Below, piece by piece: positions 12,327-33,657 of a stretch of DNA of 49,753 nucleotides. A model generated the notes under the pieces. The model ran no database searches and had not been told where the DNA came from. It was given only the letters and a program-made list of their open reading frames with translations. Each line of letters begins with the position of its first letter. Position 1 is the first letter of the stretch. Source of the stretch: an uncultured Erysipelotrichaceae bacterium (lineage in GTDB: Bacteria; Bacillota_I; Bacilli_A; RFN20; CAG-826); NCBI GenBank assembly GCA_902797795.1, contig CADBUF010000078.1, forward strand, positions 1-49,753, given 5' to 3'. The translations under genes were made by a program, and so were the position numbers.

Positions 12327-12375
12327 ATTGATTATTTTTCTTAAAGTTATAATCAAAGTGAAAGAGAAACATAAT

Positions 12376-14058: not shown

Positions 14059-14834
14059 TGAATATTTTGTGTGTCGGTAACTCGTTCGCCGTAGATGCTT
14101 CAACCTATGTTCATCAAATTGCAGAACATATTGGAGAAAAAATCGATATCCACGTTTTATACATTCCTGGTTGTCCAATAAACTTACACTGGAAAAATTA
14201 TCTTTCTAGAGAAAAAGCTTATGAATTCTATGTAAATGGAAGCCTTTCTCCTCTTATGTGGTGTGATATTTTTGAAGGACTTAGATACACAAAATACGAC
14301 TATATAACCTTCCAACAAAGAAGCGGAGATTCTGGTGATGCATCAACTTTTTTCCCAGAATTAACCCTTTTATCGGAACATATTAAAAAAGACTATCAAG
14401 GTCAACATGTATTGCATAAAACCTGGAGCTACGCGAAATCATTTTCACATGATAAATATGGTAATAACCCATTAGATCAAGCTGCGATGGATAATGACAT
14501 TAAGGAAGCTTATCTAGAAGTTAGTAAAAAAGCTAACATTAAGTATATCATCCCTTCTGGTGAGGCTATTAAATTAGCAAGACAGGTATTTGGTGATGAA
14601 CTCAATCGTGATGGATATCACCTTAACGAAAGAGGAAGATTATTAGTCGGAATACTGTGGGTGATGTATTTTTTAGGTAAAGAAAATATCAACTTAGAAG
14701 GCTTTGTTCCTCGTGGATTTACCTATGACGACAAAACCCCTGGAGTAGATGAAAAAGAGATACCAACACTCGTAGAAATCGCTCAGAACGCACTTAAAAA
14801 TAACAAAGGACACAATTTATATGCTCAAAATTGA
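14058..14834 (+). CDS. DUF4886 SGNH-fold hydrolase, cytoplasmic
   Basis: Matches the DUF4886 type of SGNH hydrolases: LCVGNSFAVDAS at residues 4-15 carries the nucleophile Ser, YITFQQRSG near 92-100 is the family block, and DGYHLNERGRL near 192 carries the Asp/His pair. No signal peptide, so it acts inside the cell, probably removing acyl groups from imported oligosaccharides (inferred from context). ATG overlaps the mutase stop (TAATG) with AAGGAG upstream. A second DUF4886 domain is embedded in the secreted protein at 36410. Confidence 0.8.
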   Translation: MNILCVGNSFAVDASTYVHQIAEHIGEKIDIHVLYIPGCPINLHWKNYLSREKAYEFYVNGSLSPLMWCDIFEGLRYTKYDYITFQQRSGDSGDASTFFPELTLLSEHIKKDYQGQHVLHKTWSYAKSFSHDKYGNNPLDQAAMDNDIKEAYLEVSKKANIKYIIPSGEAIKLARQVFGDELNRDGYHLNERGRLLVGILWVMYFLGKENINLEGFVPRGFTYDDKTPGVDEKEIPTLVEIAQNALKNNKGHNLYAQN

Positions 14835-15444
14835 AAAGAACGAATATCAAGGAATTAGATACTTACTTTATTATCCAAAAGACTTTAAAAAAGAGAACAA
14901 ATATCCAGTTGTATTTCATCTCCATGGAGCTGGTTCAAGAGGAAAAGATTTTAAAGAATTTGAAGGATCAGTAATACTTGATTTATTAGACAAAGAAGAA
15001 TCTCCTCTTAATGAGGCAATATGTGTTTTCCCACAATGTCAAAACGACACCTGGTTTGATTCGTTTACCGAATTATTAAACCTTGTGAAATACATATATT
15101 CTCAACCTTTTGTTGATCAAAAAAGATTTAACGCTTCCGGCATTTCAATGGGGGGATATGCGACCTATCAAGTCTTAATGTCACTACCAAAACTATTCAA
15201 TAAAGCACTAATTTGTTGTGGAGGCGGAATGTATTGGAATTCTGGCCGAATTAAAGACATAAAATTTAGAATTTTTCATGGTGAAAAAGATGTCGCAGTT
15301 TACCCAGAAGAAGCTAGACGAATGTATGCTCGATTAGTGGAAACAAACGCTGACGCTACCTTAACAATTTATCATGACTGTGATCACAACTGTTGGGAGA
15401 AAACATACCTAAATTTAGATAACCTCAAATGGCTCATTTCTTAG
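14821..15444 (+). CDS. Alpha/beta-fold esterase (carboxylesterase/feruloyl-esterase type)
   Basis: 207-residue cytoplasmic serine esterase of the polyhydroxybutyrate-depolymerase/phospholipase-carboxylesterase group. Oxyanion motif HLHGAGSRG is near residue 34, nucleophile in SGISMGGYAT near 108, acid Asp in FHGEKDVAV near 160 and His in YHDCDHNCW near 185. It overlaps the DUF4886 gene by 14 bases, so the two esterases are made together. Deacylation of imported sugars is the likely job; the acyl group is unknown. Confidence 0.82.
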   Translation: MLKIEKNEYQGIRYLLYYPKDFKKENKYPVVFHLHGAGSRGKDFKEFEGSVILDLLDKEESPLNEAICVFPQCQNDTWFDSFTELLNLVKYIYSQPFVDQKRFNASGISMGGYATYQVLMSLPKLFNKALICCGGGMYWNSGRIKDIKFRIFHGEKDVAVYPEEARRMYARLVETNADATLTIYHDCDHNCWEKTYLNLDNLKWLIS

Positions 15445-15514: not shown

Positions 15515-15557
15515 TTTCTCCTGGTTGAATGCAAAAATATTCATAGGAGAACTTTTT

Positions 15558-17660
15558 ATGTCTAATAAAAGAATTTGGTTATCAGCAGCCTCAATTTTGT
15601 TTTTAGTTGGCTGCGGAAGTAATAGCGGCAATAGTGGCAACGAACCTTACATTCCAGTAGTCACGCCTATTGAAGCTCCAGTAGTGAGCGTAAATGAAAA
15701 AGGTGATGGATTAATTTGGGAAGATGTTGCTAGAGCAACTTTATATGAAGTTGATATTAACGACGAAGAAACTGTCGAACTTGATGAACCAGAATATCTC
15801 TTCAGCAGTGTCGCTGGTGAATATAGTTTAAAAATTGTTTCTGTAGCGGCAAGTGGAGAAAAAAGTGAAGCCACTGAATTTGAATACGAATCACGTGCAA
15901 GCTCTTTATCCGAATTATATTGCGATGGAAGCAATGTAACTTGGGTAATCGGTTCATCTGATTATTACGCTCTCGAATATAGCGTTGATGGTGAACATTT
16001 TAGTTTGGTAAGTGAATCATACATCCCAGTAACTGTTAGCGGAGTTTATACAGTCCGTACAGTTAAAGGCTATAAGGAACAAGGAAGTATTTTCTATTCC
16101 ACTTCTGTTTCAAAATCAATTGTTGTCACTGAGCCAGCTGAATCAATGTATGTTTTAGAAGATGCTAGTGCAGAAGACAGTGCAACATTAAGTGAATCTT
16201 ACGAAAAATTTGTTTATAAAGATGGCAACTGGAAAGACACCACTTCTGAAGTTAGTTTAGATGGAAGTTATACGGATTACGTCGATGGTAACGCTGCCGA
16301 TTTCAAATACTGGTATCACAACAGCTACTTCTTATATGAAAAAGAGATAAGTCTTGATGGTTCATATAATGAATTTAGTTTCTCTGTTAAATCATACGAA
16401 TCTACCAATGCTGTTTTATCATTCCAAATCAAACAAGATTTAGTTATTAATGGCATTAATTTCAACGGCGTTTATATTAAATATGATGTCCCACAACTTC
16501 CAACCAGCTGGACAAAATATCGCGTTTCATTCAGCGATTCAAACTGGAAAGTTGTTTATGATAATCAACCATACGATTTCGCTACTATAGCAGCGTTTGT
16601 TAATAACTATGGTTTTAAAGTTCAAAAGTTAGAAGATTTCTTACCTTATTTTGATGTTTTCCAATTCAGATTAAGAGCAAGTTATCGTGATGGTGGACCA
16701 GTAGCACATACATATTTTGACAATGTGTGTTTATTAAATTCCGAATTAAAGAATACTGTCATTGAAACTATTATTCCTTCATTAAAAGCAAAAGAATCCT
16801 ATGCTTTCACTGGCAATTTATGTTCTGGGAAGATTAGTTTCTCTGAAGATGGTACTGGTTTACTTTCTGTATCTTCACCAATGGAACTTGACTTACCAGT
16901 TAAGCATGAAGTGGTTGAAGGAAAATTACATGTCTATTCAGAAGTAGAAGGAAAAGACTTTGATGCTTATTTAACTTCTAATGATGGCGGTACAAATCTC
17001 GTTCTTGAATCCGTAACTGGTACTTTTGCTACTTATATGCAAGGTATTGTTGCCGAAGCAGTTAATCTCTTAGATGATTTTGAATCTTACGAATCTACCG
17101 GTGTTGGTTTAGATAATGACCACCGCGATGAAAGCCAATTATCAGGACTTAGAGGTGCTTATTTTGCTGACTACTACACTGGTGGTAACGGCGATTCCCC
17201 AGTCGGAGGATCTAACTGGAGCTTAATGCGCTCAAGCGACTACAACGAATTGTCAAAAGACGTTTACCATACAGGAAGTCAATCTTTCAAATTAAAGAGC
17301 AACACTAATACCATGAGATTTATGACCTGGGGTTTAAAGGATGGAACCGCTACAAAAGGTTCTAAAGGTAAATATTTCTCATTATGGGCTAAAGGTGGAG
17401 ACGTTAGTAACATGACATTAAGAGTGTCTGTTTACGCGGTAAGCAAAGTTGATCCTTCTAATCAAGTTACTGACTCAATCAGAAAATGGACAGATTTCAC
17501 CGTTCCAATGAACAGTGGCTGGACAGAATACAAATTAGAATTAGATGAATCAAAAGAATATTATGGTTTCTCCATCACCACTAAAGATGGTGGAAACAAA
17601 CAATATGTCTACGTTGATGATATCTACATCTATAGCAGTATGTCTCCTTGGGGTAAATAA
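15558..17660 (+). CDS. Modular surface lipoprotein with carbohydrate-binding-like domains
   Basis: First gene of unit B. The 19-residue lipoprotein signal ends LVGC (Cys19). Next come one or two fibronectin-III-like folds (about 35-190), a beta-rich domain with the jelly-roll ending HTYFDNVCLL (about 195-400), a smaller beta domain (405-500) and a C-terminal module from LLDDFESYEST to YVDDIYIYSS (about 504-695). The C-terminal module is also found in the protein at 33882. No catalytic motif is seen, so it is probably a surface glycan-binding protein, the Gram-positive counterpart of SusE/SusF-like proteins. Start at 15558 is fixed by AGGAGA 8 bases upstream and by the signal peptide; a start at 15525 would add a non-signal stretch. 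Confidence 0.8.
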   Translation: MSNKRIWLSAASILFLVGCGSNSGNSGNEPYIPVVTPIEAPVVSVNEKGDGLIWEDVARATLYEVDINDEETVELDEPEYLFSSVAGEYSLKIVSVAASGEKSEATEFEYESRASSLSELYCDGSNVTWVIGSSDYYALEYSVDGEHFSLVSESYIPVTVSGVYTVRTVKGYKEQGSIFYSTSVSKSIVVTEPAESMYVLEDASAEDSATLSESYEKFVYKDGNWKDTTSEVSLDGSYTDYVDGNAADFKYWYHNSYFLYEKEISLDGSYNEFSFSVKSYESTNAVLSFQIKQDLVINGINFNGVYIKYDVPQLPTSWTKYRVSFSDSNWKVVYDNQPYDFATIAAFVNNYGFKVQKLEDFLPYFDVFQFRLRASYRDGGPVAHTYFDNVCLLNSELKNTVIETIIPSLKAKESYAFTGNLCSGKISFSEDGTGLLSVSSPMELDLPVKHEVVEGKLHVYSEVEGKDFDAYLTSNDGGTNLVLESVTGTFATYMQGIVAEAVNLLDDFESYESTGVGLDNDHRDESQLSGLRGAYFADYYTGGNGDSPVGGSNWSLMRSSDYNELSKDVYHTGSQSFKLKSNTNTMRFMTWGLKDGTATKGSKGKYFSLWAKGGDVSNMTLRVSVYAVSKVDPSNQVTDSIRKWTDFTVPMNSGWTEYKLELDESKEYYGFSITTKDGGNKQYVYVDDIYIYSSMSPWGK

Positions 17661-17672
17661 TTAAATATTGAT

Positions 17673-18689
17673 ATGTCAAAACGAGTAAGACTAGAAGACA
17701 TAGCAAAAGAATGCGGAGTAACAAAGGGATTAGTTTCTCGATCTTTAGCAGGAAAATACAATGTTGGAGATGAGAAGCGTAATCTTATCATGCAAAAAGC
17801 AGTCGAACTTGGTTACGATTTCAACAAACTGAGAACCAAAAAAACCAAAAATAGTTCAGTCGTTGTTATCGTTTCCCAGACAATACTGCTTAAAGAAGAT
17901 TTCTGGCAACCAATTTTGAAGAATATGTATGCTACACTTAACCGCGTTTCAATCAAGATGGAATACTTTGTCTTTGATTCAACAAATATTGATCTCGCTA
18001 GTGTGAAAGCTTTGAAAAGTAATCCATGTATTGCCTTTGTCATATTCCATCAAAATCCAGATGTCATATTTAAGGAATTGAAGAAGTTCAATAAACCTAT
18101 CGTGGAAGTTGATCCTAAATACATGCATTACACAGGAGTTACTCAAATCAAATATTCAAATTACACCTCGATTTATGAAGCAACTCAAAAGCTAATTGAT
18201 TATGGTCACAAAACTATATGTTTCTATGGAAGCGATTCCCACTCATATAGCTTTAGAGAAAGACACGAGGGCTTCCTAAGTTGCATTGACAATAATAAAG
18301 AAAAAGGAATACGCGGAGTTTCAATTCTGTTTGATAACAGCTCCCTTCAATACAGTGATAATGAGATGTTAATAAAAGCATTAAACAAAAATAAAGATAT
18401 CACTGCAATTATCTGCGCTAACGACATCGTCGCTCTTAATGCTTATAAAGTTATTAAAGGTTTAGGTAAACAAATCCCTGAAGATTATTCAATCATTGGA
18501 TTTGACAATGTTAGTTCTGGCAAATATTCATATCCAACTTTATCAACATTCAATGTTCCAAGGGAACAAATTGGCGATGAAATAGGATTATATATCGCTA
18601 GATTACGTCAGGAGGGAAAACCTCAATATTCAGAATTTACGATTAGATGTGATTTTATCGAGAGGGGTTCAATTACGAAATTGAATTAA
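17673..18689 (+). CDS. LacI/GalR-family transcriptional regulator
   Basis: Residues 4-55 form the LacI helix-turn-helix: VRLEDIAKECGVTKGLVSRSLAGK, followed by GDEKRNLIMQKAVELGY. The remainder is a periplasmic-binding-like effector domain (residues 60-338) with typical blocks such as CFYGSDSHSYSFRERHEGF and AIICANDIVALNAYKVI. Its place inside the sugar operon suggests it senses a product of the locus and binds the GTTTAC-type sites ahead of units A-C (inferred). There is no ribosome-binding sequence ahead of the ATG, so the protein may be made at low level from the long mRNA. Confidence 0.92.
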   Translation: MSKRVRLEDIAKECGVTKGLVSRSLAGKYNVGDEKRNLIMQKAVELGYDFNKLRTKKTKNSSVVVIVSQTILLKEDFWQPILKNMYATLNRVSIKMEYFVFDSTNIDLASVKALKSNPCIAFVIFHQNPDVIFKELKKFNKPIVEVDPKYMHYTGVTQIKYSNYTSIYEATQKLIDYGHKTICFYGSDSHSYSFRERHEGFLSCIDNNKEKGIRGVSILFDNSSLQYSDNEMLIKALNKNKDITAIICANDIVALNAYKVIKGLGKQIPEDYSIIGFDNVSSGKYSYPTLSTFNVPREQIGDEIGLYIARLRQEGKPQYSEFTIRCDFIERGSITKLN

Positions 18690-18697: not shown

Positions 18698-19681
18698 ATG
18701 AAAAATAAAAGTGATAACAAACTTATGAATATGCCTTGGGAAGAATGCCCAAAAGGTTTTACTGGCCCAATTTGGCGTTATTCTCTTAATCCAATAATTA
18801 ATCGACATCCTGCTGAAAACATTTCCCGCGTCTTTAATAGCGCCGCTGTTTATTTTAACAATGAATATGTTGGTGTTTTCCGCGGTGATAATCTCGATGA
18901 TATTCCTCATCTATATGTAGGTCATTCTAAAGATGGCATTAACTTTGAAATCAATAAAGATAAAATCGTCTTTGTGAATGAATCCGGTGAGGTTCTTGAA
19001 GATTCTGGATATCAATATGATCCAAGAGTCATTCCTTTTGAAGATTATTTCATCGTCGTTTGGTGTGATAATCTTTCAGGACCAACTATCGCGATTGCAA
19101 AAACCAAAGATTTCAAAACATTTGTCAAATTTGACTCGCCTTTCCTTCCATATAACCGTAATGGGGTTATCTTCCCAAGAAAAATTAATGGATCTTATTT
19201 GATGCTTTCTCGTCCAAGTGATTCAGGTCACACTGCGTTTGGTGATATTTTCCTATCAGAAAGCAAAGATTTAACATATTGGGGAAAACATCGCCTTGTG
19301 ATGAAATGTGGCTATGAATGGTGGTGCGCTTTAAAAGTAGGCGCTGGTCCAGTACCAATTGAATTAGATGATGGATGGTTATTATTTATCCATGGTGTTA
19401 ATCGCACATGTAACGGCTATGTCTATTCAATAGGTGGAATCATTTTAGATAAAAACGATCCATCAAAAGTTTTATATAGATGCAAGAATTTCTTACTCAC
19501 TCCAGAAGAGCAATATGAAACATGCGGTTTTGTTCCAAATGTTATCTTCCCTACTTCTGCGCTTGTTGATAAAGAAAACGGCAGAATCGCTATATATTAT
19601 GGTGCAAGCGACACATATACCTGTTTAGCGTTCACCACCATTGAGAGAGTTGTTAATTACATCAAAGAGCATTCTCGTTAA
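18698..19681 (+). CDS. GH130 beta-mannoside phosphorylase, subfamily 2-like
   Basis: Inverting phosphorylase that uses phosphate to release mannose 1-phosphate from beta-mannosides. The N-terminus MPWEECPKGFTGPIWRYSLNP, the catalytic block QYDPRV (Asp108), NGVIFPRKINGSYLMLSRPS, FGDIFLSES and GAGPVPIELDDGWLLFIHGV follow the GH130_2 enzymes such as UhgbMP, known to act on beta-1,4-mannosyl-GlcNAc and beta-1,4-manno-oligosaccharides. 327 residues, no signal peptide, so it works on imported sugar. It is followed within 6 bases by the importer genes. Whether it prefers Man-GlcNAc or mannan oligosaccharides cannot be decided from sequence alone. Confidence 0.9.
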   Translation: MKNKSDNKLMNMPWEECPKGFTGPIWRYSLNPIINRHPAENISRVFNSAAVYFNNEYVGVFRGDNLDDIPHLYVGHSKDGINFEINKDKIVFVNESGEVLEDSGYQYDPRVIPFEDYFIVVWCDNLSGPTIAIAKTKDFKTFVKFDSPFLPYNRNGVIFPRKINGSYLMLSRPSDSGHTAFGDIFLSESKDLTYWGKHRLVMKCGYEWWCALKVGAGPVPIELDDGWLLFIHGVNRTCNGYVYSIGGIILDKNDPSKVLYRCKNFLLTPEEQYETCGFVPNVIFPTSALVDKENGRIAIYYGASDTYTCLAFTTIERVVNYIKEHSR

Positions 19682-19687: not shown

Positions 19688-20653
19688 ATGGAAAAGCTTT
19701 TAATTAAGAGAAAACAAAGTTACGCATACTCATTCAAAAGAAGATTTAGTGCTTCTAAGTTTTTACTTTTGATGATTATCCCTGCGATTGTTTATTACGC
19801 GGTATTCTGCTACGCTCCAATGTATGGTGTTTTAATCGCCTTTACTAAGTATTCTCCTAAAAAAGGAATTATGGGTTCAGTCACAGATAACTGGATTGGT
19901 TTTGAAAACTTCAAATTCATTTTCAATTATCCAAGCTTCTGGACTGCATTTAAGAACACATTAATTATCGGTTCTTTAAAGATTATTATTTCATTTACAT
20001 CGGCGATTTTAGTGGCCTTACTCATTAACGAACTAAGAATGCGCTTCTTCAAGAAAGGTGTCCAAATTATTGTCACCTTCCCACACTTCTTATCATGGGT
20101 TGTTGTTGCAAGCTTGTTCCGGTTAACGCTGAGTGAGACGGGCGGAATAAGTTATCTGGTACAGCAATTAGGTGGTCAGCCGCTTAAATTCTTAAGCGAT
20201 GGAAAACTGTTCCTGTCACTATTATTTTCTAGTGACGTTTGGAAAGAAGCTGGCTGGAGTTCCATTATTTATATTGCCACCATGGCAGGTATTTCTACTG
20301 ACTTATATGAAGCAGCGAATATCGACGGTGCTAGCCGTATTCAAAAGATTTGGCACGTTACCTTACCAGGTATTCGACCAACCGCAATCTTACTCCTTAT
20401 TATGTCAGTAGGTGGCGTCTTATCTGCTGGATTTGATCAAATTTATAACTTAACTGGTTCTTTAAACAACGCAGTTGTTTTGGATTCAGTACAAATTATC
20501 GACGTCTTGATTTATCAAGGCACATTTGGTGGAGGTGGATTAACAATGGGTCAAACCACGGCAATCGGCTTATTCAAGTCGCTGGTTGGTTTCGTCTTAG
20601 TTATTACCACTGACCGTATAGCTAAGCTATGTGGAGAAAGGGGCATCATCTGA
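19688..20653 (+). CDS. ABC sugar importer permease, LplB type
   Basis: Inner component of a carbohydrate importer. Six hydrophobic segments, an LplB-like N-terminus (LLMIIPAIVYYAVFCYAPMYG) and the ATPase-contacting EAA loop EAANIDGASRIQKIWHVTLPG near residue 205-225. The LplB/YtcP pair usually carries complex oligosaccharides. Stops with TGA, which overlaps the next start by one base, so the two permeases are translationally coupled. Confidence 0.93.
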   Translation: MEKLLIKRKQSYAYSFKRRFSASKFLLLMIIPAIVYYAVFCYAPMYGVLIAFTKYSPKKGIMGSVTDNWIGFENFKFIFNYPSFWTAFKNTLIIGSLKIIISFTSAILVALLINELRMRFFKKGVQIIVTFPHFLSWVVVASLFRLTLSETGGISYLVQQLGGQPLKFLSDGKLFLSLLFSSDVWKEAGWSSIIYIATMAGISTDLYEAANIDGASRIQKIWHVTLPGIRPTAILLLIMSVGGVLSAGFDQIYNLTGSLNNAVVLDSVQIIDVLIYQGTFGGGGLTMGQTTAIGLFKSLVGFVLVITTDRIAKLCGERGII

Positions 20654-21561
20654 TGGCTAAAACAAAAATTGATAAACTTCCACTAGCGAGAAAAGAGCGA
20701 CCAGGACCATCTAATCGTTTTGGTGGTTTTGACGTTGTTCTTTTCATCATTCTATTGATATTTGCATTATTAATCATTTTCCCATTCTATTATTTATTTG
20801 TTGTTTCTATTACTCCTCAAGAAATTTACGTGAATAACCCACTTACTTTATGGACACCAAGAGTTACTTTTGATGCCTATAAATCAGTATTTAACGATTC
20901 ACGTATTTGGGGTGGATTAAAAATTACCTTAATCCTTCTATTTGGTGGAACTTTGTATCAAATGTTCTTCACTGTTATCACAGGTTACGCATTAAGCCGT
21001 AATAACTGGGTTGGTAAGAATTTTGTGATGAACATGATTTTAGTAACAATGTTCTTTGGCGGAGGATTAATTCCTTACTACATTTTGATTAAAACTCTCG
21101 GCATGATTAACACCATTTGGGTCATGATCATTCCTGGAGCTATTGATACATTTAATATGCTTTTGATGAGAAACTATTTTGCTTCTTTACCAAAAGAACT
21201 TGAAGAGAGTGCGAAGATTGATGGCGCTAACGATGTACAAATCTTTGTGAAAATCTTCCTTCCACTATCTCTTCCAATGTTAGCAACTGTCGGTCTATTC
21301 TTTGCCGTTGGCAACTGGAATTCTTGGTATAACGGTATGCTCTTTAACAGCAGCCAAAACTTAAAGACTTTACAACAAGTCCTTCAAGATATCGTCTATA
21401 CCCCAAGCAGTGGCATTCCAAACCCAGGCAAAATTAGAATCGACGATGAGAGTATGAAGATGGCCGCTATCTTCTTTACAATCATTCCAATGATGTTATT
21501 TTATCCATTCTTACAACGTTACTTCGTTAAAGGTATCGTTGTTGGCGCGATTAAAGGTTAG
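20653..21561 (+). CDS. ABC sugar importer permease, YtcP/AraQ type
   Basis: Second permease of the importer, with six hydrophobic segments and the EAA loop LEESAKIDGANDVQIFVKIFLP near residue 185-206. The C-terminal RYFVKGIVVGAIKG is the usual end of this family. I choose ATG at 20653 (MAKTKIDKLP), overlapping the upstream stop with GGAGAAAGGGG before it; a start at 20629 would add eight residues inside the previous gene. Confidence 0.93.
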   Translation: MAKTKIDKLPLARKERPGPSNRFGGFDVVLFIILLIFALLIIFPFYYLFVVSITPQEIYVNNPLTLWTPRVTFDAYKSVFNDSRIWGGLKITLILLFGGTLYQMFFTVITGYALSRNNWVGKNFVMNMILVTMFFGGGLIPYYILIKTLGMINTIWVMIIPGAIDTFNMLLMRNYFASLPKELEESAKIDGANDVQIFVKIFLPLSLPMLATVGLFFAVGNWNSWYNGMLFNSSQNLKTLQQVLQDIVYTPSSGIPNPGKIRIDDESMKMAAIFFTIIPMMLFYPFLQRYFVKGIVVGAIKG

Positions 21562-21573: not shown

Positions 21574-23166
21574 ATGCGCAAGAAATTTTATTTATTATTA
21601 GCAGCAACTGCTATCTCGTCAATTTCATTGACCGGATGTGGCGGAGAAGATGAGCAGAAAGAGGATGCTTATAGTGGAGATGGAAAATTAGCCATTTCCC
21701 TACGTAACCTCTATTTCGATGACTATCAAGGTGGAGATAGTTATATTCAAGAAATTGAAAGAAAATTCGGTGTTTCCTTATCATTTGAATCCTATTCTTG
21801 GTCTCAATGGGAGCAACAAGTCAGCGGTCAAATCAATGGTGGCAATCTTCCAGATGTCTTCCATGCGAATATTGATAGCTACAATTTCGCTCTTACTTAC
21901 AAATTCTGGGCTGAGGAAGAAATTATTAAACCTCTTCCATCAAATTTATCTTATTGGCCAAACATTCAAAAGATGATTTTAAACACCAGTAACATTCAAT
22001 CTCTTTACGTAAATGGACAATTATATGGTTTACCAATTGCTAAGAGTACAACCGATTATTCCACTACTTTCTCTCCATTTACCTATATCTATAGAAGAGA
22101 CTGGGCTAAACAATTTGGTGTTTATCAAGAAAATGATGAATACACTTGGGAGCAATTCATCAACTTACTTAATGTTTTCTCAACACAATTAGCAAGTTCT
22201 AATCGTTATGCATTAGGTGATGTTGAATGGGGTTATCCAAGTATTATCAACTTTTATAAACAAGTACCACACTGCTTTGCTTATAACGAAGTCACAAAAC
22301 AATACGTTAATAACTACACTACTCCTTTATATTTACAAGGATTAGAAATGGCGAAGAATTTCAGAAACTGGGGATTCTATTACCCAAGTCAAAACTCCGC
22401 CGCTGATGGACAATTAAATAAAGAATATTACGGAAACAAAATTGGTGTTCTTTACGAAAATCTTTCTTATAGCAACTATGAAACTTTAAAGACTATGCTC
22501 AAAAGATCCAATAGTAGCAATCCGTATTTCAATGTCGATGATGCGACCGCAATCATGAAAATCAAAGGTCCAGATGGAAAATATGCCTTAGAAGGTACCG
22601 ATAACTGGTTCTCCATGACTTTCTTTGATAATCGTATTAGTGACACAAAGATGTACAAAATCCTTTCAATCCTTGATTGGCTTTTATCCGAAGAAGGAAC
22701 AAGATTCTCAATTTATGGTTTTGAAGATTATGACTACATCATCAACGATGAAGGCGAAATCGAATTAGTCGAAGCTTATTGGCCAAAAGCCGATGATGGA
22801 TCTTATGCTCCAAAAAGAAATGGTGCGAAATATTTAAGATACCTCGCTTCTTTAGGCTATGACACATTAAATTATGATCCACTTACAAATAAAGAGTCTG
22901 TTGAATATCTCGAATCTTGGGAAAATGAAATGAAAGCCGCTCTTGATAGAGATGAACTCAAAGTTCTCAAAGAAAGACCACAAGTTATGTGGTTAACCAC
23001 TCAATTAAAGAGTCAGTTATCAGGATTAATGAGAACAACTGCCTTAAATAACGTTATGAAATATGTCTATGGTGAAATTTCTACATTAGATGAATTCTGT
23101 GGAAAATTTGGATATCCATGGCCAGATGTCTTAGCAGAAATTAATGGCGCAATAGGAGGTTATTAA
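21574..23166 (+). CDS. ABC sugar importer solute-binding lipoprotein
   Basis: Extracellular binding protein of the LplA type. Signal peptide ending LTGC (Cys22), then the opening sheet LAISLRNLYFDD and the QINGGNLPDVFHANI block shared by cluster-type sugar-binding proteins. 530 residues is normal for binding proteins partnered with LplB/YtcP, which take long oligosaccharides. GGAGG precedes the ATG. Ligand inferred from context: beta-manno-oligosaccharide or related. Confidence 0.92.
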   Translation: MRKKFYLLLAATAISSISLTGCGGEDEQKEDAYSGDGKLAISLRNLYFDDYQGGDSYIQEIERKFGVSLSFESYSWSQWEQQVSGQINGGNLPDVFHANIDSYNFALTYKFWAEEEIIKPLPSNLSYWPNIQKMILNTSNIQSLYVNGQLYGLPIAKSTTDYSTTFSPFTYIYRRDWAKQFGVYQENDEYTWEQFINLLNVFSTQLASSNRYALGDVEWGYPSIINFYKQVPHCFAYNEVTKQYVNNYTTPLYLQGLEMAKNFRNWGFYYPSQNSAADGQLNKEYYGNKIGVLYENLSYSNYETLKTMLKRSNSSNPYFNVDDATAIMKIKGPDGKYALEGTDNWFSMTFFDNRISDTKMYKILSILDWLLSEEGTRFSIYGFEDYDYIINDEGEIELVEAYWPKADDGSYAPKRNGAKYLRYLASLGYDTLNYDPLTNKESVEYLESWENEMKAALDRDELKVLKERPQVMWLTTQLKSQLSGLMRTTALNNVMKYVYGEISTLDEFCGKFGYPWPDVLAEINGAIGGY

Positions 23167-23175: not shown

Positions 23176-24750
23176 ATGAAAAAAGTAGAGAGATTTGGTT
23201 TATTAGGTCTTGCCACACTTCTATCTCTTTTTTCCTGTCAAAAAAATGAAGATCTTTCTTCAAACGTAAATCAAAATTCTTCTCCAACGCGTGCGGTTGT
23301 TGATACATCCTCAGTTGACAAATATCACATTGCCTTTGTTAAAGAAGATATTACTCAAAAAAACTTTGGTGGCTTAGGTGTCGAATGGGGCGCTTATGAA
23401 GACACCGATAAAATAGCTGAAGGTGGATGGGATAGAATCATCCATTATATGGATCACTTAGCCGCCGCTAGAATCCGTTTAATGATTAACTACGATTGGT
23501 TCTGCCAAAATTTTGATAACAAGGGAAACAGAGATCCTAGTGATGACACTTGGACTTATAATTTCACAAACAAATATGCAAAGAACATGATTGATATTTT
23601 GGAATATTGCCAAATTCATCATATCGATGTTGCTTTTGGAGCGTGGAATGTTATCGGTTCGCTTGAAGGTGATATTTGGAACATGATGGACCAAGTCACC
23701 AGCGATATACGTTGGGCTAAAATCACCAGCGATGTTTTAAATTTCCTTGTTAATGAAAAAGGATTCAGCTGTATTAAATGGTTTGTTAGCTCTAATGAGC
23801 CTAATTTTACCGGTAGTAAAGGATCATCCAAAAACTACAACAACACCTACCAAAAATGGGAACAAGGTGTTAAAAACGTTAGAAACGCTTTAGACGCGAT
23901 TGGCTTAAATAGAATTGGCATCATCGGAGGCGATACGACTGGTTTTGAAGGAACAGAAGAATATTTCACTGGCATTGCTTCAAATATCTCAAATATCGTT
24001 GCTGATTATGGTTACCATTTATACCTCAACAACATCGCTGTCGATAGAGGCGTGATGCTTGAAGAAATCAACAAATTACATACCAAAATCAAATTTATCG
24101 ATCCAAAATTCGGTAATAGTAAAAAAGTTGATATTTGGGAAGCTGGATTATTAGACGGTAAAACCATTTTGGACTGCCAAAAATTAATTAACACAGTCGA
24201 TTATGGAGTCAGAATGATGGATTACACCCTTCAATGTTTAGCGGGTGGAATGAATGGAGTTGTCTATTGGGATTTCGACGATGGAATGCACTTCATGTAT
24301 AGCTTAAATTCCACTACACCTAAAGAATGGGGTATGTTTTCCTCTCTAGCCGAAGCTAGCAGTGGTAAACAAGAATTAAGGCCTTGGTATCATTCTATTT
24401 CTTTACTTACACACTTATTTAAAAAGGGTAATGTTATTTATTCCCCATTACAAAACGACACGAGTATTGATAATACCTTTAGAAGTATTGCCACGATTAG
24501 TAAAGATGGCACTCAAGGTGGCTTTGCCTGTGTCAACGCGGGAGTTAGAACAACCACCAGAACATTCTACATGAATGATGAAGTTAAAGGCGATAAGCTT
24601 TATATCTATTATTTTGGAGAAGGTACATATCGTTTAGGTGAAGATGGTTTCATCGAACCTAACGATGTTATTGAAGGATCTTTAAATAAGAAAATTACTC
24701 TTACCATTCCTTCTAGATCTGGTGTTGTCGTCTCTAATACGAGGTTATAG
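23176..24750 (+). CDS. Lipoprotein glycoside hydrolase, clan GH-A fold (subfamily unknown)
   Basis: Surface-anchored (Cys21 after LFS) TIM-barrel hydrolase. The clan-A retaining pair is visible: acid/base Glu208 in SSNEPNF and a probable nucleophile Glu322 in VDIWEAGL, 114 residues apart, with GGLGVEWGAYE at strand 1 and VYWDFDDGMHF near strand 8. A C-terminal beta domain (about 400-524, ending TIPSRSGVVVSNTRL) resembles the side domain of GH30/GH39-like enzymes. It could be GH5, GH30, GH39 or an unassigned family. In this locus it is the best candidate for the endo-acting enzyme that cuts the polysaccharide outside the cell; that role is inferred. Confidence 0.75.
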   Translation: MKKVERFGLLGLATLLSLFSCQKNEDLSSNVNQNSSPTRAVVDTSSVDKYHIAFVKEDITQKNFGGLGVEWGAYEDTDKIAEGGWDRIIHYMDHLAAARIRLMINYDWFCQNFDNKGNRDPSDDTWTYNFTNKYAKNMIDILEYCQIHHIDVAFGAWNVIGSLEGDIWNMMDQVTSDIRWAKITSDVLNFLVNEKGFSCIKWFVSSNEPNFTGSKGSSKNYNNTYQKWEQGVKNVRNALDAIGLNRIGIIGGDTTGFEGTEEYFTGIASNISNIVADYGYHLYLNNIAVDRGVMLEEINKLHTKIKFIDPKFGNSKKVDIWEAGLLDGKTILDCQKLINTVDYGVRMMDYTLQCLAGGMNGVVYWDFDDGMHFMYSLNSTTPKEWGMFSSLAEASSGKQELRPWYHSISLLTHLFKKGNVIYSPLQNDTSIDNTFRSIATISKDGTQGGFACVNAGVRTTTRTFYMNDEVKGDKLYIYYFGEGTYRLGEDGFIEPNDVIEGSLNKKITLTIPSRSGVVVSNTRL

Positions 24751-24752: not shown

Positions 24753-27434
24753 ATGAAAAAGAGATGTTTATTATTACTTGCCTCGTTATTAGTTTTAGGA
24801 GCGTGTTCTGACTCTAGTGGCGGTTCAAGCACTCCTATTACACCAGTTAATCCAAGAACAGAAGTTGATTTCGATGAATTAGAAGATAACAACTATGTTC
24901 CATCAGAACAAAAAACTGGTGAAATTTCCTCTTTCTCACTCCTTTCACCTGCTTCTGGAGTTACTTTAGACGCTCTTGAAACATTTAAGTGGGAAAGCGC
25001 TGAAAACGCTGATAAATACACAATTGAAATTTGCTCAAGTGAATTATTTATCAACGATAACAGCATGATTGATTATTACATTCAAGAAAACATTAATGCG
25101 ACTAAATGGACAGTCACATCTACATTAATGCTTAAAAACACTAATTATTATTGGAGAGTTATTGCCTACAATAAATCTGATATTAAATATTGTAGCGAAG
25201 TATTCTCCTTCTATCACAAAGCTCCAGAAATTGAAGAAGTACATTTTGATGTTGGCGAAGCTGATGATTGGCAGCTCCACTCAGTTGGTTCTTACGCTGA
25301 TATCAGCATTGATAACTCTAACTTCTTTAAAAATAATCAACCATCATTAAAGGTATCATTTAAAGAAGAAGATACCCATCAAGGTATTCCTGAAAGTGAT
25401 GGATGGATTATTGTCTCTAAAACTATTGAAAAGAGTATCTATGGCACTGATGCTTTCTTATTCAACTTCTATTATGGTGGGCAAGATGCACAAGTATTCA
25501 TTCGTATGGTGGACCGTGATAATGAATATTGGTTTGCCCCTGTCATGATTTCTAATAACGCAAAACAACAAGTCATCTTAAAATTTTCTGACTTCGTTCA
25601 AAGAACAAAAGATGTTCCAGTTGGAAATATGGTGTTTGATTACGAAAGAATCAAGTATTTAGAAATCGTCTTTGAAAAAAGTTTTGGTGATGGCATTCTC
25701 CTAATTTCAGGTATGAAAGCCATTAAATTTGACAATTATCGTGACTTCTTTATTCAAAAACTTGATTTCACTTCTTATGAAGAAGAAAGATGGGTTAATG
25801 AAGGCTATAACTTTGAAAAAGAAGTAACTGAAGATGAATTAACCTTAAGATATTACGGCACTAATTCAGAAGGAAAGCCAAAAATTAATGGTTATGGTTT
25901 TGCTAAGATTTATGTCAATCAATATTTCTATGCAGGCGATGCGATTAAGATTAAGGTTAAATACACTGGATCTAAAGGAACTAACGCAGTCATTCGTATT
26001 TATGAAGAAGATACGGATAGATGGTCATATAAATTACCATTCAGTTCACTCGTAGCTGATGAATATGTGGAATTGATTATTCCATACGCTGCCTTTGCTA
26101 AAAGTGACACTCCTGGTGATGGAAAACGTCAATTCTATAACATCATCAACCTCCAATTTGGTCTAGAAGGCCAATATGGTGCTGGTACATTAAGTTATAA
26201 AGACTTTGAAATCGTTAGTAAGAAAGATTACAAAGAAGAATATGAAAGAATAGTCGGCCCTGATGGCTTAGTGGAAGATTTCAGCAATTACAAATATACA
26301 TCTGAATTATTCATGAGTTGGGATTCTTCTGAAGTCAACAAAGATGAATATATGTTATTAAATGACACTAACAAGATTGGTGGCGCTTCTAATCCATATT
26401 GTGGCCAATTTGAATATAAGAGCGATATGGAACCAGCTAGATACACTATTTCGACCTCTGTTGATTTAGGAACAAGTTTCTCCTCATTATCAATTTGGAT
26501 GAAAGACTTCTCTACTAAGAGTGGAGATTCTCGCTTTGGCTATCTCACAAATTATAGCGCATACGTAAACATCTATATTTATTTAAAGAGTTCAGAAATT
26601 TATCTCTATCCTTTAGGTTCAATTGATAGGGTTTGGAAGGAATACAATATTCCATTCTCCAGTTTTGAACTTACAAATCGTGATGAAGTATTACATATAC
26701 CAAATCCAATTACTGGAGGCGGTATTAGTAAAATCGAATTCACCCTTCAATATTTCTATTACACGATTCAAGGTGTTCCACTACCACAATACACGAATAA
26801 TAACCAAGTCTTTGTTGATAACATCTATTTAACTAACGATGACGTCTATTCTGAAGTCGAAAAAGAAAAGATTGTCAAAATGGATGGAGATATCGCTTTA
26901 GTTGATGATTTCGAAGACTATGAAGAAACTGAAGAACTTGAATATAACTGGAATGATGGTCGTGAACACGAATATCAACATAAAGAATTAAGTAATGTTG
27001 TTTCAAGTGAAGGCGATTCTCATTCTATGGCAGTTCAATATAAAGGAAACGCTGAATCTCCAGCATATTATATTGCTCCTGCATTTGCTTCTGATGTTAA
27101 AGGCAGAGCCTTAAAAGTTTCCTTATATAGTGAAAAATCAATGACTATCTACGTCAATATTTATCTCACTATTGGAACAAGCAACATTCAATATCGAGCA
27201 ACAATCTCTAACAGTGCGACAAATTGGACTGAATACGCTCTCGGCTTTAACAACTTCTCTGTTGTTTCTGGAACACAAAGAACATTAACAGCGAATGATT
27301 TAGTTCATATCACTCGTATTTCCTTTGGTATGGCATATTACGGTGATAATGATTTACATCAACTTTATATCGATAATTTAATGTTCGATTATTCGTTATC
27401 CTATAACACCAATACACGTCGTGTTATCGAATAG
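24753..27434 (+). CDS. Large multi-domain glycan-binding lipoprotein
   Basis: 893 residues with lipobox LGAC (Cys18). Domain order: a fibronectin-III-like domain (about 50-150), then four jelly-roll-like segments at about 160-325, 330-490, 505-700 and 715-885. The last two each open with LVEDFSNYKYT / LVDDFEDYEET and end QVFVDNIYL / QLYIDNLMF, the 'D-F-x-x-Y ... V-D-N-I' frame of CBM-like folds. No catalytic residues are evident. Probably the main surface polysaccharide-binding protein of the locus. I cannot assign a named CBM family. Confidence 0.78.
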   Translation: MKKRCLLLLASLLVLGACSDSSGGSSTPITPVNPRTEVDFDELEDNNYVPSEQKTGEISSFSLLSPASGVTLDALETFKWESAENADKYTIEICSSELFINDNSMIDYYIQENINATKWTVTSTLMLKNTNYYWRVIAYNKSDIKYCSEVFSFYHKAPEIEEVHFDVGEADDWQLHSVGSYADISIDNSNFFKNNQPSLKVSFKEEDTHQGIPESDGWIIVSKTIEKSIYGTDAFLFNFYYGGQDAQVFIRMVDRDNEYWFAPVMISNNAKQQVILKFSDFVQRTKDVPVGNMVFDYERIKYLEIVFEKSFGDGILLISGMKAIKFDNYRDFFIQKLDFTSYEEERWVNEGYNFEKEVTEDELTLRYYGTNSEGKPKINGYGFAKIYVNQYFYAGDAIKIKVKYTGSKGTNAVIRIYEEDTDRWSYKLPFSSLVADEYVELIIPYAAFAKSDTPGDGKRQFYNIINLQFGLEGQYGAGTLSYKDFEIVSKKDYKEEYERIVGPDGLVEDFSNYKYTSELFMSWDSSEVNKDEYMLLNDTNKIGGASNPYCGQFEYKSDMEPARYTISTSVDLGTSFSSLSIWMKDFSTKSGDSRFGYLTNYSAYVNIYIYLKSSEIYLYPLGSIDRVWKEYNIPFSSFELTNRDEVLHIPNPITGGGISKIEFTLQYFYYTIQGVPLPQYTNNNQVFVDNIYLTNDDVYSEVEKEKIVKMDGDIALVDDFEDYEETEELEYNWNDGREHEYQHKELSNVVSSEGDSHSMAVQYKGNAESPAYYIAPAFASDVKGRALKVSLYSEKSMTIYVNIYLTIGTSNIQYRATISNSATNWTEYALGFNNFSVVSGTQRTLTANDLVHITRISFGMAYYGDNDLHQLYIDNLMFDYSLSYNTNTRRVIE

Positions 27435-27445: not shown

Positions 27446-28462
27446 ATGATTAAATTAGAAAAATATCAAAATAATCCTATCCTCGTTAAAAACAAAAAGA
27501 ACAAATGGGAAAGCCTCTGTGTTTTAAATCCTGCGGTGATTTATAACGAAGAAGAAAAGCTTTTATATATGCTATATCGTAGCGCTGGAAATGATAAACA
27601 ACATTATATCTATATTGGTTTAGCTACTAGCGAAGATGGTATTCATTTTAAAAGACAAAGTGATAAGCCATTAATTGCTCCCGATGTCAAAGGTGCGGAT
27701 GGAGGAGGAGTAGAAGATCCTCGATTAGTAAAAATCGATGATTATTATTTCCTTACTTATGCCTCTCGCCCATTTGCCCCAGGACAATATTGGAGAGAAG
27801 ATAAAGAATATTTTGGCTTCCAACCAAAAGCTGGTCCTAGAACACTTATTTATAACGATACACAAACCCATTTAGCGGTCTCTAAAGATCTCAAAAATTG
27901 GAAAAAACTTGGACGTATTACTGATTCTAGATTTGATGATCGAGATGTCATTATTTTTCCAGAAAAAGTTAACGGCAAATTTGTCAAAATCTCTAGAGCG
28001 ATGAATAAATGCGGGGAAGGCTATCAAAATAAGAAACCCGCCATCTGGCTCTCTTATTCAGATGATTTACTTGAATGGAGAGAAGAAGAACATCTCCTAT
28101 ATGAAGGAAAAGAATCTTGGGAAGATGAAAAAGTTGGTGGAAGTTGTCCTCCTATTAAAACAAGCGAAGGATGGTTATTCATCTATCACGGGGTTTCTTC
28201 TAAAGACAAGCAATATCGTGTCGGTGCGATGCTATTAGATTTAAAGAACCCGCTTAAAATCCTCGGACGAACTAAAGACTTCATCATGGAACCAGAATTC
28301 CATTTTGAATCAGATGGTTTCTATAGCGGATGCGTTTTCCCTACCGGTATCGTAGAAGTAAAAAACAAATATTACATCTATTATGGAGCAGGAGATCAAT
28401 GTATCTGCCTCGCTACCATTGAAAAAGAAAAATTATTAAAAGAATTGAAAGGAGGAAAATAA
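27446..28462 (+). CDS. GH130 family enzyme, second and divergent copy
   Basis: Five-bladed propeller enzyme. Family blocks: NPAVIYNEEEKLLYMLYR, IGLATSEDGIHF, GGGVEDPRL with catalytic Asp91, FPEKVNGKFVKISR, GGSCPPIKTSEGWLFIYHGV and IYYGAGDQCICLA. It lacks the PWEE-type N-terminus of the copy at 18698, so it is from another subgroup; members of such subgroups include 1,2-beta-mannoside phosphorylases and hydrolases. No signal peptide, so cytoplasmic. A second linkage or chain length is the likely target. Confidence 0.85.
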   Translation: MIKLEKYQNNPILVKNKKNKWESLCVLNPAVIYNEEEKLLYMLYRSAGNDKQHYIYIGLATSEDGIHFKRQSDKPLIAPDVKGADGGGVEDPRLVKIDDYYFLTYASRPFAPGQYWREDKEYFGFQPKAGPRTLIYNDTQTHLAVSKDLKNWKKLGRITDSRFDDRDVIIFPEKVNGKFVKISRAMNKCGEGYQNKKPAIWLSYSDDLLEWREEEHLLYEGKESWEDEKVGGSCPPIKTSEGWLFIYHGVSSKDKQYRVGAMLLDLKNPLKILGRTKDFIMEPEFHFESDGFYSGCVFPTGIVEVKNKYYIYYGAGDQCICLATIEKEKLLKELKGGK

Positions 28463-28467: not shown

Positions 28468-29805
28468 ATGAAAAAACGTTTAATGCTATTACTTCCAGTA
28501 GTCTCGCTATTATTTGCGTGTGGTGAGCAAAATAATAATCAATTATATGCTTCATCCATAAAAAGAGCGGGAAATGAAGAAAGCGAAGAATATGGCGATG
28601 ACCGTTATTATGCTTTATTCATGCTTAACTTTCCTCGTTCCACCTCCACTTCTCCTAATGGCTATGAAGAAATGGTGGAAAACACACTTTATCAAAAAGT
28701 GGAAATTGTTCCTGGACAATTAATTCCTAGACCAGAAAAAGATCCTGAAAGAAACAATTATGAATTCCAAGGATGGTTTAAAGAAAAAGCTTGCACTAAC
28801 GAATGGGATTTTGAAAATGACGTTGCTGTTGGTTCAACCATTTTATACGCCAAATGGGGTACTGGTGAGGAAGAAGAATATGTCGAACCAGAATACATCC
28901 CAGAAGAAAGGATTATCACTGATATGGATTATCGTGTCACTGGAATATTAAATAAGAGCGTTTACCCCGCAAATGAAGAAGGCGTGAATTATAAAGTTGA
29001 TCTTACTGCCGGCGGAATAAATCGTTTAATTAAACATAAAGAAGACGTCTCTTTTGCTGTTAATTATGAAAGAAGAATCGATGTCACTTTAACTAAGGCT
29101 ACATATGATGAAGAAGCTATGGCCATTCATCTAGAAGTCAGTAGCGGCAAATCTTTCAATATCTTAATTAATGATATTACTAGTTCTTTAAGTATCGCTA
29201 ATGTGTCTACATATTATGAACAAAAAGCTAGTAAGTATGAACAAAACGGTGCCGATATTGAAAACTATCACATCGCTTTAGGCGGTTCATCCTCAATGGA
29301 AAACTGGTCCACATCAACTGAAGATATGGCGCCAATTGTTTCCTTTAACCATGGTATTGGTGGCACAACCGTTCAACAATGGACCGATAAATTATTTGAA
29401 AGGTTAATTCTCCCATATTCACCTAAGGCAGTAGCCTATTATGTTGGTGTTAATAACATCATCAACTCTGGTGAAAAAGGCGATGAAACCGGACGTGCTC
29501 TTATCGATTTATTTAATAAAACACACGAATTTTTACCAAACGCCAAAATCTTCTATGTCCTTATTAACAAATTACCAATGTATGGTAGCTTCCAATCTGA
29601 ATTTGATATCGCTAACAATTACGCTTTAGAACACGCTAGTACACATGAATACTTAACATGTATTGATGCTGGTGTTGGCTTATTAAAAGAAAACGGACTT
29701 CCACACTTTGGCTATTTCTGCACTGATGGATTACATATGTCAAAAATTGGCTATGTTATCTGGGGCGCAGCTGTTAAAAAAGCAATCATGGATTGGTTAG
29801 GATAA
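28468..29805 (+). CDS. Lipoprotein with InlB-type repeat and SGNH esterase domain
   Basis: Lipobox LFAC (Cys18). Residues about 70-135 form one Listeria-Bacteroides (InlB B-type) repeat, ending FQGWFKEKACTNEWDFENDV and ILYAKWG. Residues 265-445 are a GDSL/SGNH hydrolase: ALGGSSSMENW with the nucleophile Ser, GIGGTTVQQW, YVGVNNI with the block III Asn, and DGLHMSKIGY with Asp and His. It is likely a surface acetyl esterase acting on the polysaccharide (inferred). Directly follows GH130. Confidence 0.82.
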   Translation: MKKRLMLLLPVVSLLFACGEQNNNQLYASSIKRAGNEESEEYGDDRYYALFMLNFPRSTSTSPNGYEEMVENTLYQKVEIVPGQLIPRPEKDPERNNYEFQGWFKEKACTNEWDFENDVAVGSTILYAKWGTGEEEEYVEPEYIPEERIITDMDYRVTGILNKSVYPANEEGVNYKVDLTAGGINRLIKHKEDVSFAVNYERRIDVTLTKATYDEEAMAIHLEVSSGKSFNILINDITSSLSIANVSTYYEQKASKYEQNGADIENYHIALGGSSSMENWSTSTEDMAPIVSFNHGIGGTTVQQWTDKLFERLILPYSPKAVAYYVGVNNIINSGEKGDETGRALIDLFNKTHEFLPNAKIFYVLINKLPMYGSFQSEFDIANNYALEHASTHEYLTCIDAGVGLLKENGLPHFGYFCTDGLHMSKIGYVIWGAAVKKAIMDWLG

Positions 29806-31767: not shown

Positions 31768-33657
31768 ATGGCTAGTCTATTATTAAAACACATCTACAAG
31801 GTTTATCCAGGAGGTGTAAGAGCGGTTAACGACTTCAATCTTAAAATCAAAGATAAGTCATTCGTTGTTCTTGTTGGACCATCTGGATGTGGTAAATCCA
31901 CCACATTAAGAATGGTTGCAGGTCTAGAAGGAATCACTTCTGGTCAACTCTATATTGATAACACTCTTGTTAATGATGTAGAAAGCAAAAATCGTGATAT
32001 CGCAATGGTGTTCCAAAGCTATGCTTTGTATCCACATATGACCGTTTATCAAAACATGGGATTTTCTCTTAAATTAAGACATGAAAAATCCGCGGTTATT
32101 AAAGAAAAAGTTCTTAAAGCTGCTGAAGTATTAGAGATTTCAGATTTACTCGATCGTAAGCCAAAAGAATTGTCTGGTGGACAAAGACAACGTGTCGCTT
32201 TAGGTAGAGCAATTGTTAGAGAACCTAATGTCTTCCTTTTAGATGAACCTCTTTCTAACTTAGACGCCAAACTTCGTGTACAAATGAGAACAGAAATCAC
32301 AAAATTACACGAAAAGCTTCAAACCACATTTATTTATGTTACTCATGATCAAACTGAAGCGATGACAATGGGTGATACAATCGTTGTCATGAATAAAGGA
32401 TTTATTCAACAAGCCGATTCTCCTGTCACTTTATTTGAAGACCCTGTTAATTTATTCGTTGCAACCTTCTTAGGTTCACCACAAATGAATATCGTTGAAG
32501 GTATGCTAGTTAAAAAAGAAGGTAAGATTGGTTTCGAACTTGAAATGAATAAAGAGAATGTTGTGTGGTTTAAAGAAGAAACCGCAAAACAAATTATTAA
32601 TAGTGATATTGACTTTGATAAACACTATCTCTTTGGTGTTAGACCAGATCATATCAAAATTTCAAATAAAGGCATTCCTGCTCATGTTGAAGCAGTTGAA
32701 CAACTTGGTGATGAAACAATTGTGTACACCAAAATTGAAGGTCATAAGAACAATGTTGTTGTCAAATCACCACTTCTTAACAATATTAACGTCAACGACG
32801 ATATTCATTTAGATATCTCAATGAATAGAGTGTATCTGTTTGACGTTTTAAGTGAGCATTCTCTTATCGGCATGCCTTCATTTAATAAGCTCCCATGCCA
32901 ACTCAAAGATAACAAAATCAAAGTCGGTAAATCCACGATTGTTATGGATAGTGAATTTATGTCTCATTTATTAGCGGGTGCGTATGAAAAAGACCGCTAC
33001 TTAGCAATTAAACCAGAGCATATCGAATTTGAAAAAAATGAGAGCAACGCTCCACTTAATGTGAGAGTTGATTTCATCGAAAAAAGAACAAACTACAACA
33101 TCATCTTTGCGGTAGTTGACGGGGTCAAACCATACCTTATTTTTAGAGCTAATAAAGATAGAAACATTAAGGTTGGAGATGAATTAGATGTTTATCTTCC
33201 TTTAGAGCACATTTCCATCTTTGACAAACATGATGATTCATATTATTCAAGAGAAATCGTCTATCCAAATAAGGCTATTGCAAAGTTAAAAACAAGAAAT
33301 GAAAAAACATATGTCTCAATCATTGGAGGAGAAACACTCGTTTATGATAATCTTCACCGCGAAGATGGAGAATATGAATTTGTTTTGAAGCAAGATAAAT
33401 GTAAGCCAGTATTCAAACATAAAGTGGCAAAAAATATCAAAGATCCATTAACAAAAGTGAACAAAGGTGAATATCTCAAAGTCTCTTGTTATGACGAAGA
33501 ACCACAACACAAAACCAACACTATTTTTGTAAAAATTAAGGGCTTCGAAGAATACGTAACGCTTAACATTAAAAACAATTTCTCTGTTTACAAAATGCCA
33601 ACTTTTAAAATCAAAGTTCCATTTGATGGATTTGAGTTAAAACCATTAGAGAAATAG
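31768..33657 (+). CDS. Sugar-importer ABC ATPase (MsmX/UgpC type) with long duplicated C-terminus
   Basis: ATPase that powers the LplB/YtcP importer. Residues 1-240 are a canonical nucleotide-binding domain: Walker A GPSGCGKST near 40, Q-loop MVFQSYALYPHM near 82, signature LSGGQRQRVALGRA near 135, Walker B FLLDEPLSNLDAKLR near 158 and H-loop VTHDQTEAMTM near 192. It is 629 residues, against about 370 for relatives. The regulatory OB/TOBE part appears twice, GVRPDHIKIS... (about 288-370) and AIKPEHIEFE... (about 411-495), followed by a tail of some 130 residues. Last gene of unit B. Confidence 0.93.
   Translation: MASLLLKHIYKVYPGGVRAVNDFNLKIKDKSFVVLVGPSGCGKSTTLRMVAGLEGITSGQLYIDNTLVNDVESKNRDIAMVFQSYALYPHMTVYQNMGFSLKLRHEKSAVIKEKVLKAAEVLEISDLLDRKPKELSGGQRQRVALGRAIVREPNVFLLDEPLSNLDAKLRVQMRTEITKLHEKLQTTFIYVTHDQTEAMTMGDTIVVMNKGFIQQADSPVTLFEDPVNLFVATFLGSPQMNIVEGMLVKKEGKIGFELEMNKENVVWFKEETAKQIINSDIDFDKHYLFGVRPDHIKISNKGIPAHVEAVEQLGDETIVYTKIEGHKNNVVVKSPLLNNINVNDDIHLDISMNRVYLFDVLSEHSLIGMPSFNKLPCQLKDNKIKVGKSTIVMDSEFMSHLLAGAYEKDRYLAIKPEHIEFEKNESNAPLNVRVDFIEKRTNYNIIFAVVDGVKPYLIFRANKDRNIKVGDELDVYLPLEHISIFDKHDDSYYSREIVYPNKAIAKLKTRNEKTYVSIIGGETLVYDNLHREDGEYEFVLKQDKCKPVFKHKVAKNIKDPLTKVNKGEYLKVSCYDEEPQHKTNTIFVKIKGFEEYVTLNIKNNFSVYKMPTFKIKVPFDGFELKPLEK

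Follow-up and report, generated by a model that had tools for sequence, protein, structure and literature searches.

GHX, an unclassified clan GH-A lineage found beside GH130 genes in gut and rumen Bacilli, is a candidate beta-mannoside hydrolase

Here, we report that a window of 49,753 nucleotides (the whole stretch of DNA analysed) from an uncultured Erysipelotrichaceae bacterium encodes a putative hydrolase that, judged solely by Pfam and NCBIfam models rather than by dbCAN or CAZy, is an unclassified lineage of clan GH-A. We designate as GHX the protein encoded by positions 23176..24750 (+) of this window. On balance, we lean towards the view that GHX is a surface-anchored, retaining clan GH-A hydrolase with a GH30-like fold, which would cut a beta-mannosidic polymer for import and GH130-dependent phosphorolysis and would thus fill the slot of a GH26 enzyme. 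If this is right, a lineage of uncultured Bacilli from gut and rumen, whose genomes measure about 1-2 Mb, uses beta-mannosides via an enzyme that is missed or mislabelled by current family models, a new mannan-active family could be defined, and the NC-type group of GH130 proteins described below (GH130b) would gain a first functional handle.

The GHX gene and its relatives

The GHX gene is an intact open reading frame of 524 aa with an ATG start, located exactly where the original prediction had placed it. The N-terminus is of the lipoprotein type (the window copy reads LLSLFSC), and a signal sequence ending in Cys was present in all 17 relatives examined. Thus, GHX is likely a surface lipoprotein, in line with the surface location proposed originally; its location is deduced from this lipobox. 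The relatives, 48-74% identical to GHX, come from metagenome-assembled genomes of Bacilli, many of which were obtained from rumen or other forestomach samples according to their record titles. In four pairs of GHX genes dN was well below dS, for example 0.061 against 0.697 in the L002/L016 pair; between the window copy and that of L001, dN was 0.20 and dS was near saturation. These substitution ratios point to purifying selection and, together with the conserved gene order described below, indicate that GHX is a real gene. Neither the protein nor its profile matched any PDB chain by sequence, and no description of the lineage could be recognised in the titles and abstract starts of the open-licence PMC literature.

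Catalytic residues and predicted fold

The two motifs on which the original prediction was based, NEP and IWEAG, could be located at the residues given there: N207-E208-P209 (in NEPN) and W321-E322-A323-G324 (WEAG). N207, E208 and E322 were invariant in all 18 aligned members (window and relatives) and also in every one of the 10 rows of a more diverse set, which spans 24-74% identity and two phyla, Bacteroidota included. An AlphaFold2 model of GHX (mean pLDDT 80.8, pTM 0.84) showed an eight-stranded barrel (E66-70, E99-104, E151-156, E200-205, E248-255, E277-284, E318-325 and E361-364) followed by an all-beta region at about residues 420-520. In this model, E208 comes shortly after the end of strand 4, and strand 7 carries E322. 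This is the arrangement of clan GH-A, so the earlier assignment to this clan holds. From conservation and position, E208 is the putative acid/base and E322 the putative nucleophile. It should be noted that loops 209-211, 327-334 and 368-399 have pLDDT below 50, so the model gives no reliable view of the substrate-binding loops.

The predicted fold is GH30-like, with GH59 close. GH30 xylanases ranked first in a Foldseek search with the model, and GH39 and GH51 chains were also among the matches. In VIA comparisons, the GH30 enzymes XynC (3kl3) and Clostridium Xyn30A (4fmv) matched over the full length of the fold (Z 30-31, rmsd about 2.9, 354-365 residues; for 3kl3, Z 31.2, rmsd 2.9 and 354 aligned residues) at about 12% identity, and mouse galactocerebrosidase of GH59 (GALC, 3zr5) matched with Z 26.1, rmsd 3.1 and 374 aligned residues at 15% identity. 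GH26 and GH113 chains were not among the 50 VIA matches listed, which rules out nothing. The fold common to GHX, GH30 and GH59 does not give the substrate.

Family assignment

No Pfam or NCBIfam family passed for the window protein, the best match being a spurious one to WXG100 (E 0.19-0.25). None of the 18 members (window GHX and its 17 relatives) matched the Pfam models of GH5 (PF00150), GH26 (PF02156), GH30, GH39 or GH113 (PF22612) at E 0.5, and window GHX matched no GH30 model even at E 1. These results agree with the original view that GHX lacks the hallmarks of GH26 and GH113 mannanases. The same prediction had taken the C-terminal beta domain as a hint of GH30 or GH39. A GH30-like domain is indeed present in the model and in the fold matches; on the other hand, no member matches a Pfam model of either family, and GH39 appeared only among fold matches.

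The best named Pfam model for the relatives was that of GH59, PF02057, which was weakly matched by 15 of the 18 members (best E 4.4e-8). When six relatives were scanned singly, two scored above its cut-off of 27 bits, with 30.9 and 31.6 bits; window GHX itself had no match. However, among 295 Bacillota genomes drawn, the GH59 model was matched mostly by proteins resembling GH30: six of them passed its cut-off with 32-55 bits, whereas their GH30 scores were 150-295 bits. By BLAST clustering, the PF02057 matches L047-L060 and L062 shared one cluster with PF02055 matches, L046 stood apart as GH59 and L061 was also alone. Since true GH30 proteins pass the cut-off of PF02057, it does not separate the two families, and membership of GHX in GH59 was dropped. 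That GHX is a true member of the galactocerebrosidase family is therefore highly improbable: the PF02057 matches and the GALC structures among the fold matches would favour it, whereas the same model is tripped by GH30 proteins, the window copy lacks a match, the HMM-HMM probability with one true GH59 protein was 34% (a weak figure, as it comes from a single sequence) and the locus context is different. As a separate observation, Bacillota proteins labelled GH59 on scores near 30-60 bits should be viewed with doubt, because PF02057 passes on several GH30 proteins.

Profile comparison further separated GHX from both families. The HMM-HMM probability was 9.6% between GHX and 22 GH30 proteins (the set that remained after removal of duplicates and of L057, L058, L059 and L061, which gave 0.2-0.5% when tested apart), in comparison with 97% between GH30 and GH59 and 100% between GHX and its distant relatives in genome G476. 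GHX is thus further from GH30 and GH59 than these are from each other, which is why we treat it as an unclassified clan GH-A lineage; the original statement that it resists family assignment is borne out to this extent, and there is a fair chance that GHX represents a new glycoside-hydrolase family. These data also bear on the possibility that GHX is a divergent GH30 enzyme of the xylan, beta-1,6-glucan or beta-1,6-galactan type, located in a mixed hemicellulose operon whose GH130 genes serve another arm. Its best structural matches are GH30 xylanases, GH30 enzymes share its layout of a barrel with a C-terminal beta sandwich, and the NEP acid/base motif aligns with that of GH30 in the HMM-HMM alignment. 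However, the absence of all 18 members from the GH30 Pfam models, the low profile probability and the fact that no xylan, glucan or galactan enzyme could be recognised in the operon make this explanation quite unlikely.

Operon organisation and proposed pathway

GHX is part of an operon, the genes of which are given here in order; those with coordinates lie on the + strand. It begins with a phosphoglucomutase/phosphomannomutase (PMM, 12328..14058; Pfam PGM_PMM I-IV), for which a TTG start was called and the true start may be later. This is followed by a DUF4886 protein (14058..14834, by Pfam), probably an SGNH-type esterase, an esterase-like alpha/beta-hydrolase (14821..15444), and a 711-aa lipoprotein (15525..17660, likely start 15558) of unnamed fold and without a Pfam family, which is possibly glycan-binding and is kept upstream of the LacI gene in many relatives. 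Next are a LacI-family regulator (17673..18689), GH130a (18698..19681; GH130_2-type, motif YDPR), two ABC sugar permeases (A, 19688..20653; B, 20629..21561), an ABC solute-binding lipoprotein (SBP, 21574..23166; PF13416) and GHX. Downstream are a lipoprotein with a CIA30/CBM11-like domain (24753..27434; PF08547 with 35.9 bits, CBM_11 with 10.8 bits, below its cut-off), a candidate surface glycan-binding protein; GH130b (27446..28462; NC-type, motif EDPR); and a GDSL/SGNH esterase lipoprotein with a Listeria-Bacteroides repeat (28468..29805). The operon then continues with three small open reading frames without a Pfam family, a MalK/UgpC-type ABC ATPase (31768..33657), a Big_2 protein, a large DUF4886 protein (36410..39541), a type I phosphomannose isomerase-like protein (PMI, 39543..40442; PF20511 with 25.4 bits, cut-off 22), a ROK-family protein of the sugar kinase type (40439..41383), a NUDIX protein and a SASA-family acetylesterase (41843..42778). 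Five esterase-like genes thus lie in one operon region (14058-14834, 14821-15444, 28468-29805, 36410-39541 and 41843-42778), which suggests a heavily acetylated substrate. Upstream of the operon, the window also encodes a BspA-type leucine-rich-repeat protein (8319-9854).

Apart from the two GH130 enzymes, no glycoside-hydrolase family was matched among the operon proteins scanned, and no hydrolase family could be found in the surface proteins at 15525-17660, 33882-36368 and 44262-46823, which were searched for a second hydrolase. GHX is therefore the only recognisable extracellular chain cutter of the operon, as had been noticed originally; the accompanying suggestion that it sets the substrate of the locus is only inferred.

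With GH130, ABC import, PMM and PMI genes beside a hydrolase, the locus fits the layout of GH130-based beta-mannoside utilisation. In the proposed pathway, GHX would act at the cell surface, cutting a beta-mannosidic polymer through a retaining double displacement with two Glu residues, E322 as nucleophile and E208 as acid/base. The oligosaccharides would be imported by the ABC transporter of the operon and phosphorolysed by the cytoplasmic GH130 enzymes to mannose 1-phosphate, which PMM and PMI could convert to fructose 6-phosphate, and acetyl groups would be removed by the SGNH-type esterases. Here the retaining mechanism is deduced from clan membership, the substrate from the neighbouring genes and the endo mode only from the slot that GHX would fill; catalysis, linkage and the direction of the pathway are likewise what we infer for the locus. 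Plant-type acetylated beta-mannan or glucomannan would be our first guess for the substrate.

The closest parallel considered is offered by the mannan loci of Roseburia intestinalis, where, in the sections of PMC6385246 available to us, a GH26 enzyme makes the first cut. Those loci, as described there, resemble the GHX operon in their LacI-type regulator, SBP and permeases, two GH130 genes, two SGNH esterases, Pgm and PMI. They differ in having GH26 in place of GHX and GH130_1 in place of GH130b; moreover, no alpha-galactosidase, GH130_1, GH3 or epimerase gene could be recognised in the GHX operon.

Gene order and co-occurrence with GH130

The order SBP-GHX-CIA30 was kept in all 17 relatives. 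GH130a and GH130b were each seen in 15 of them, the contig ending before the gene in the other two cases of each. The conserved set comprises SBP, GHX and the CBM11-like gene in this order, the two GH130 genes, the ABC transporter and the GDSL esterase. In a family-wide draw of 196 genomes, GHX was found in 27, and GH130 was present in all 27 of these versus 13 of the 169 GHX-negative genomes (Fisher p 1e-23, a value that overstates the evidence because the genomes are related and not independent). One of these 13 genomes, G099, has an assembly gap exactly between the permease B and CIA30 genes, where GHX would lie. For the GHX-negative genomes, 13 stretches around GH130 genes from 9 of the 13 genomes were compared with the window proteins, and eight proteins were run on Pfam. 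In two genomes, G165 (L088) and G091 (L090), genes 45-48% identical to GH130b lay near GH94, DUF4838 or GH20 genes, with no visible GHX. Thus, GH130b does not require GHX, and members of its group seem to function in several different pathways.

A distant homologue of GHX (26-28% identity; AABK40_RS22115, annotated as a cellulase family glycosylhydrolase) was identified on plasmid pPP6 of Persicobacter psychrovividus (NZ_AP025298.1), the only record returned by a plasmid search. The homology is full-length (HMM-HMM probability 100%), and 60 bp separate the start of the gene from a preceding GH130 gene on the same strand, which is annotated as hypothetical, scores 184.9 bits for GH130 and is 50% identical to GH130b. 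In contrast to the window protein and its 17 relatives, none of which matches PF00150, the homologue scores 40.1 bits on this GH5 model (cut-off 23.5), and its locus differs in containing a SusCD pair, GH47 and GH2 nearby, together with a second GHX homologue. Of all the contextual evidence, this recurrence of the GHX-GH130 pairing so far from the Bacilli carries the most weight. The genomic context of GHX supports beta-mannosides, and mannan is a reasonable substrate to propose from the GH130 neighbours in Bacilli and on this one Bacteroidota plasmid. The stretch with the two homologues (L084:16828-19467 and 6813-8330 of NZ_AP025298.1) is also, in its own right, a candidate mannoside locus in a marine member of the Bacteroidota.

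GHX-type genes also occur in other settings. Genome G476 contains two neighbouring genes with the GHX-type catalytic domain and its Glu pair (L043:11036-15760 and L044:946-4560), which encode large multidomain surface proteins with CBM4_9/SpaA or Big_2/F5_F8 domains, and genome G420 contains a GHX-type gene with one in-frame TAA (L045:2619-5096). GH130 was found in neither genome, so the GHX lineage is not mannoside-bound throughout; the substrate of the G476 proteins is likely different. Of 395 genomes drawn from the class, four were matched by the extended profile, with no new member beyond those of G476 and G420, and a draw over the phylum returned the same 4, of 392 genomes.

The two GH130 proteins

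The solved chain closest to GH130a was TM1225 (1vkd), followed by RaMP2 of R. albus (5ayd), both of which are described as beta-1,4-mannooligosaccharide phosphorylases in the part of PMC8950772 at hand. The YDPR motif was found in 12 of 16 GH130a proteins (window and 15 loci; the crude motif search stopped at an earlier site in the other four). Loci L005 and L012 were left out of this count, since their GH130a lies off the contig and the search had picked up GH130b. GH130b carries EDPR, given as a marker of NC-type GH130 proteins in portions of PMC4264767 and PMC4599007. It keeps the basic residues of the K-x-G, YHG and YRVG motifs and hence is likely a phosphorylase, the mapping of these positions to the published phosphate-binding residues being our own.

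These features are relevant to two other substrates. First, GHX might act on beta-1,2-, beta-1,3- or mixed-linkage mannan, or on a bacterial or fungal mannose heteropolymer, with GH130b as the matched phosphorylase. The NC-type group includes beta-1,2 and beta-1,3 enzymes according to extracts of PMC4264767 and PMC8950772, the Persicobacter homologue of GHX is paired with an orthologue of GH130b, and GHX is unlike any named mannanase family. However, GH130a is close to a beta-1,4 enzyme, and GH130b is distant from beta-1,2-mannobiose phosphorylase: all 17 GH130b proteins (window, 15 loci and Persicobacter) read DDRD where four beta-1,2 enzymes read NKD. The Lys of NKD is only a candidate counterpart of Lys199 of BT3780, which is the beta-1,2 determinant in the portion of PMC4599007 consulted. 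We consider such a substrate unlikely on the whole.

Second, GHX might act on N-glycans or another GlcNAc-containing mannoside, with GH130a as a Man-GlcNAc phosphorylase. GH130_2 also holds enzymes of this kind, as reported in passages of PMC4264767 and PMC8950772, and a GH130b-like gene adjoins the GH20 gene in G091. Against this, no GH18, GH20, GH85, GH92 or GH125 match was obtained among the operon proteins scanned, and the several esterase-like genes argue for an acetylated polysaccharide. This possibility appears very unlikely to us, and cutting of a beta-mannosidic polymer remains the function that we favour for GHX.

Other mannanases in GHX-containing genomes

Mannanases fall into GH5, GH26, GH45, GH113 and GH134, as listed in the part of PMC10492685 seen; our searches of the genomes covered GH26, GH113 and GH5. 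GH26 had no match in 37 genomes, comprising 12 others and 25 of the 27 GHX-positive genomes (all except G130 and G148, where GHX matched partially). GH113 had none over the cut-off in 27 genomes (the 25 together with G476 and G420) and one sub-threshold match. For GH5 (PF00150), five of the 25 GHX genomes gave a match over the cut-off, a strong one in a single case, and these five may contain another mannanase. No GH5 match over the cut-off was obtained in the window's own genome, which is 85.7% complete, so that absences in it are not proof.

A broader proposal, which we regard as tentative and less probable than not, is that GHX founds a new retaining clan GH-A family of gut Bacilli and marine Bacteroidota. 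Its members would depolymerise a beta-mannoside that is possibly not beta-1,4-linked, would form a matched pair with the DDRD-type GH130b and, in gut Bacilli with small genomes, would take the place of mannanases of GH26, GH5 and GH113. A precedent is offered by GH164, a clan GH-A beta-mannosidase that was found as a new family, with one Glu of the pair on strand 4 and the other on strand 7, as described in the available sections of PMC7105311.
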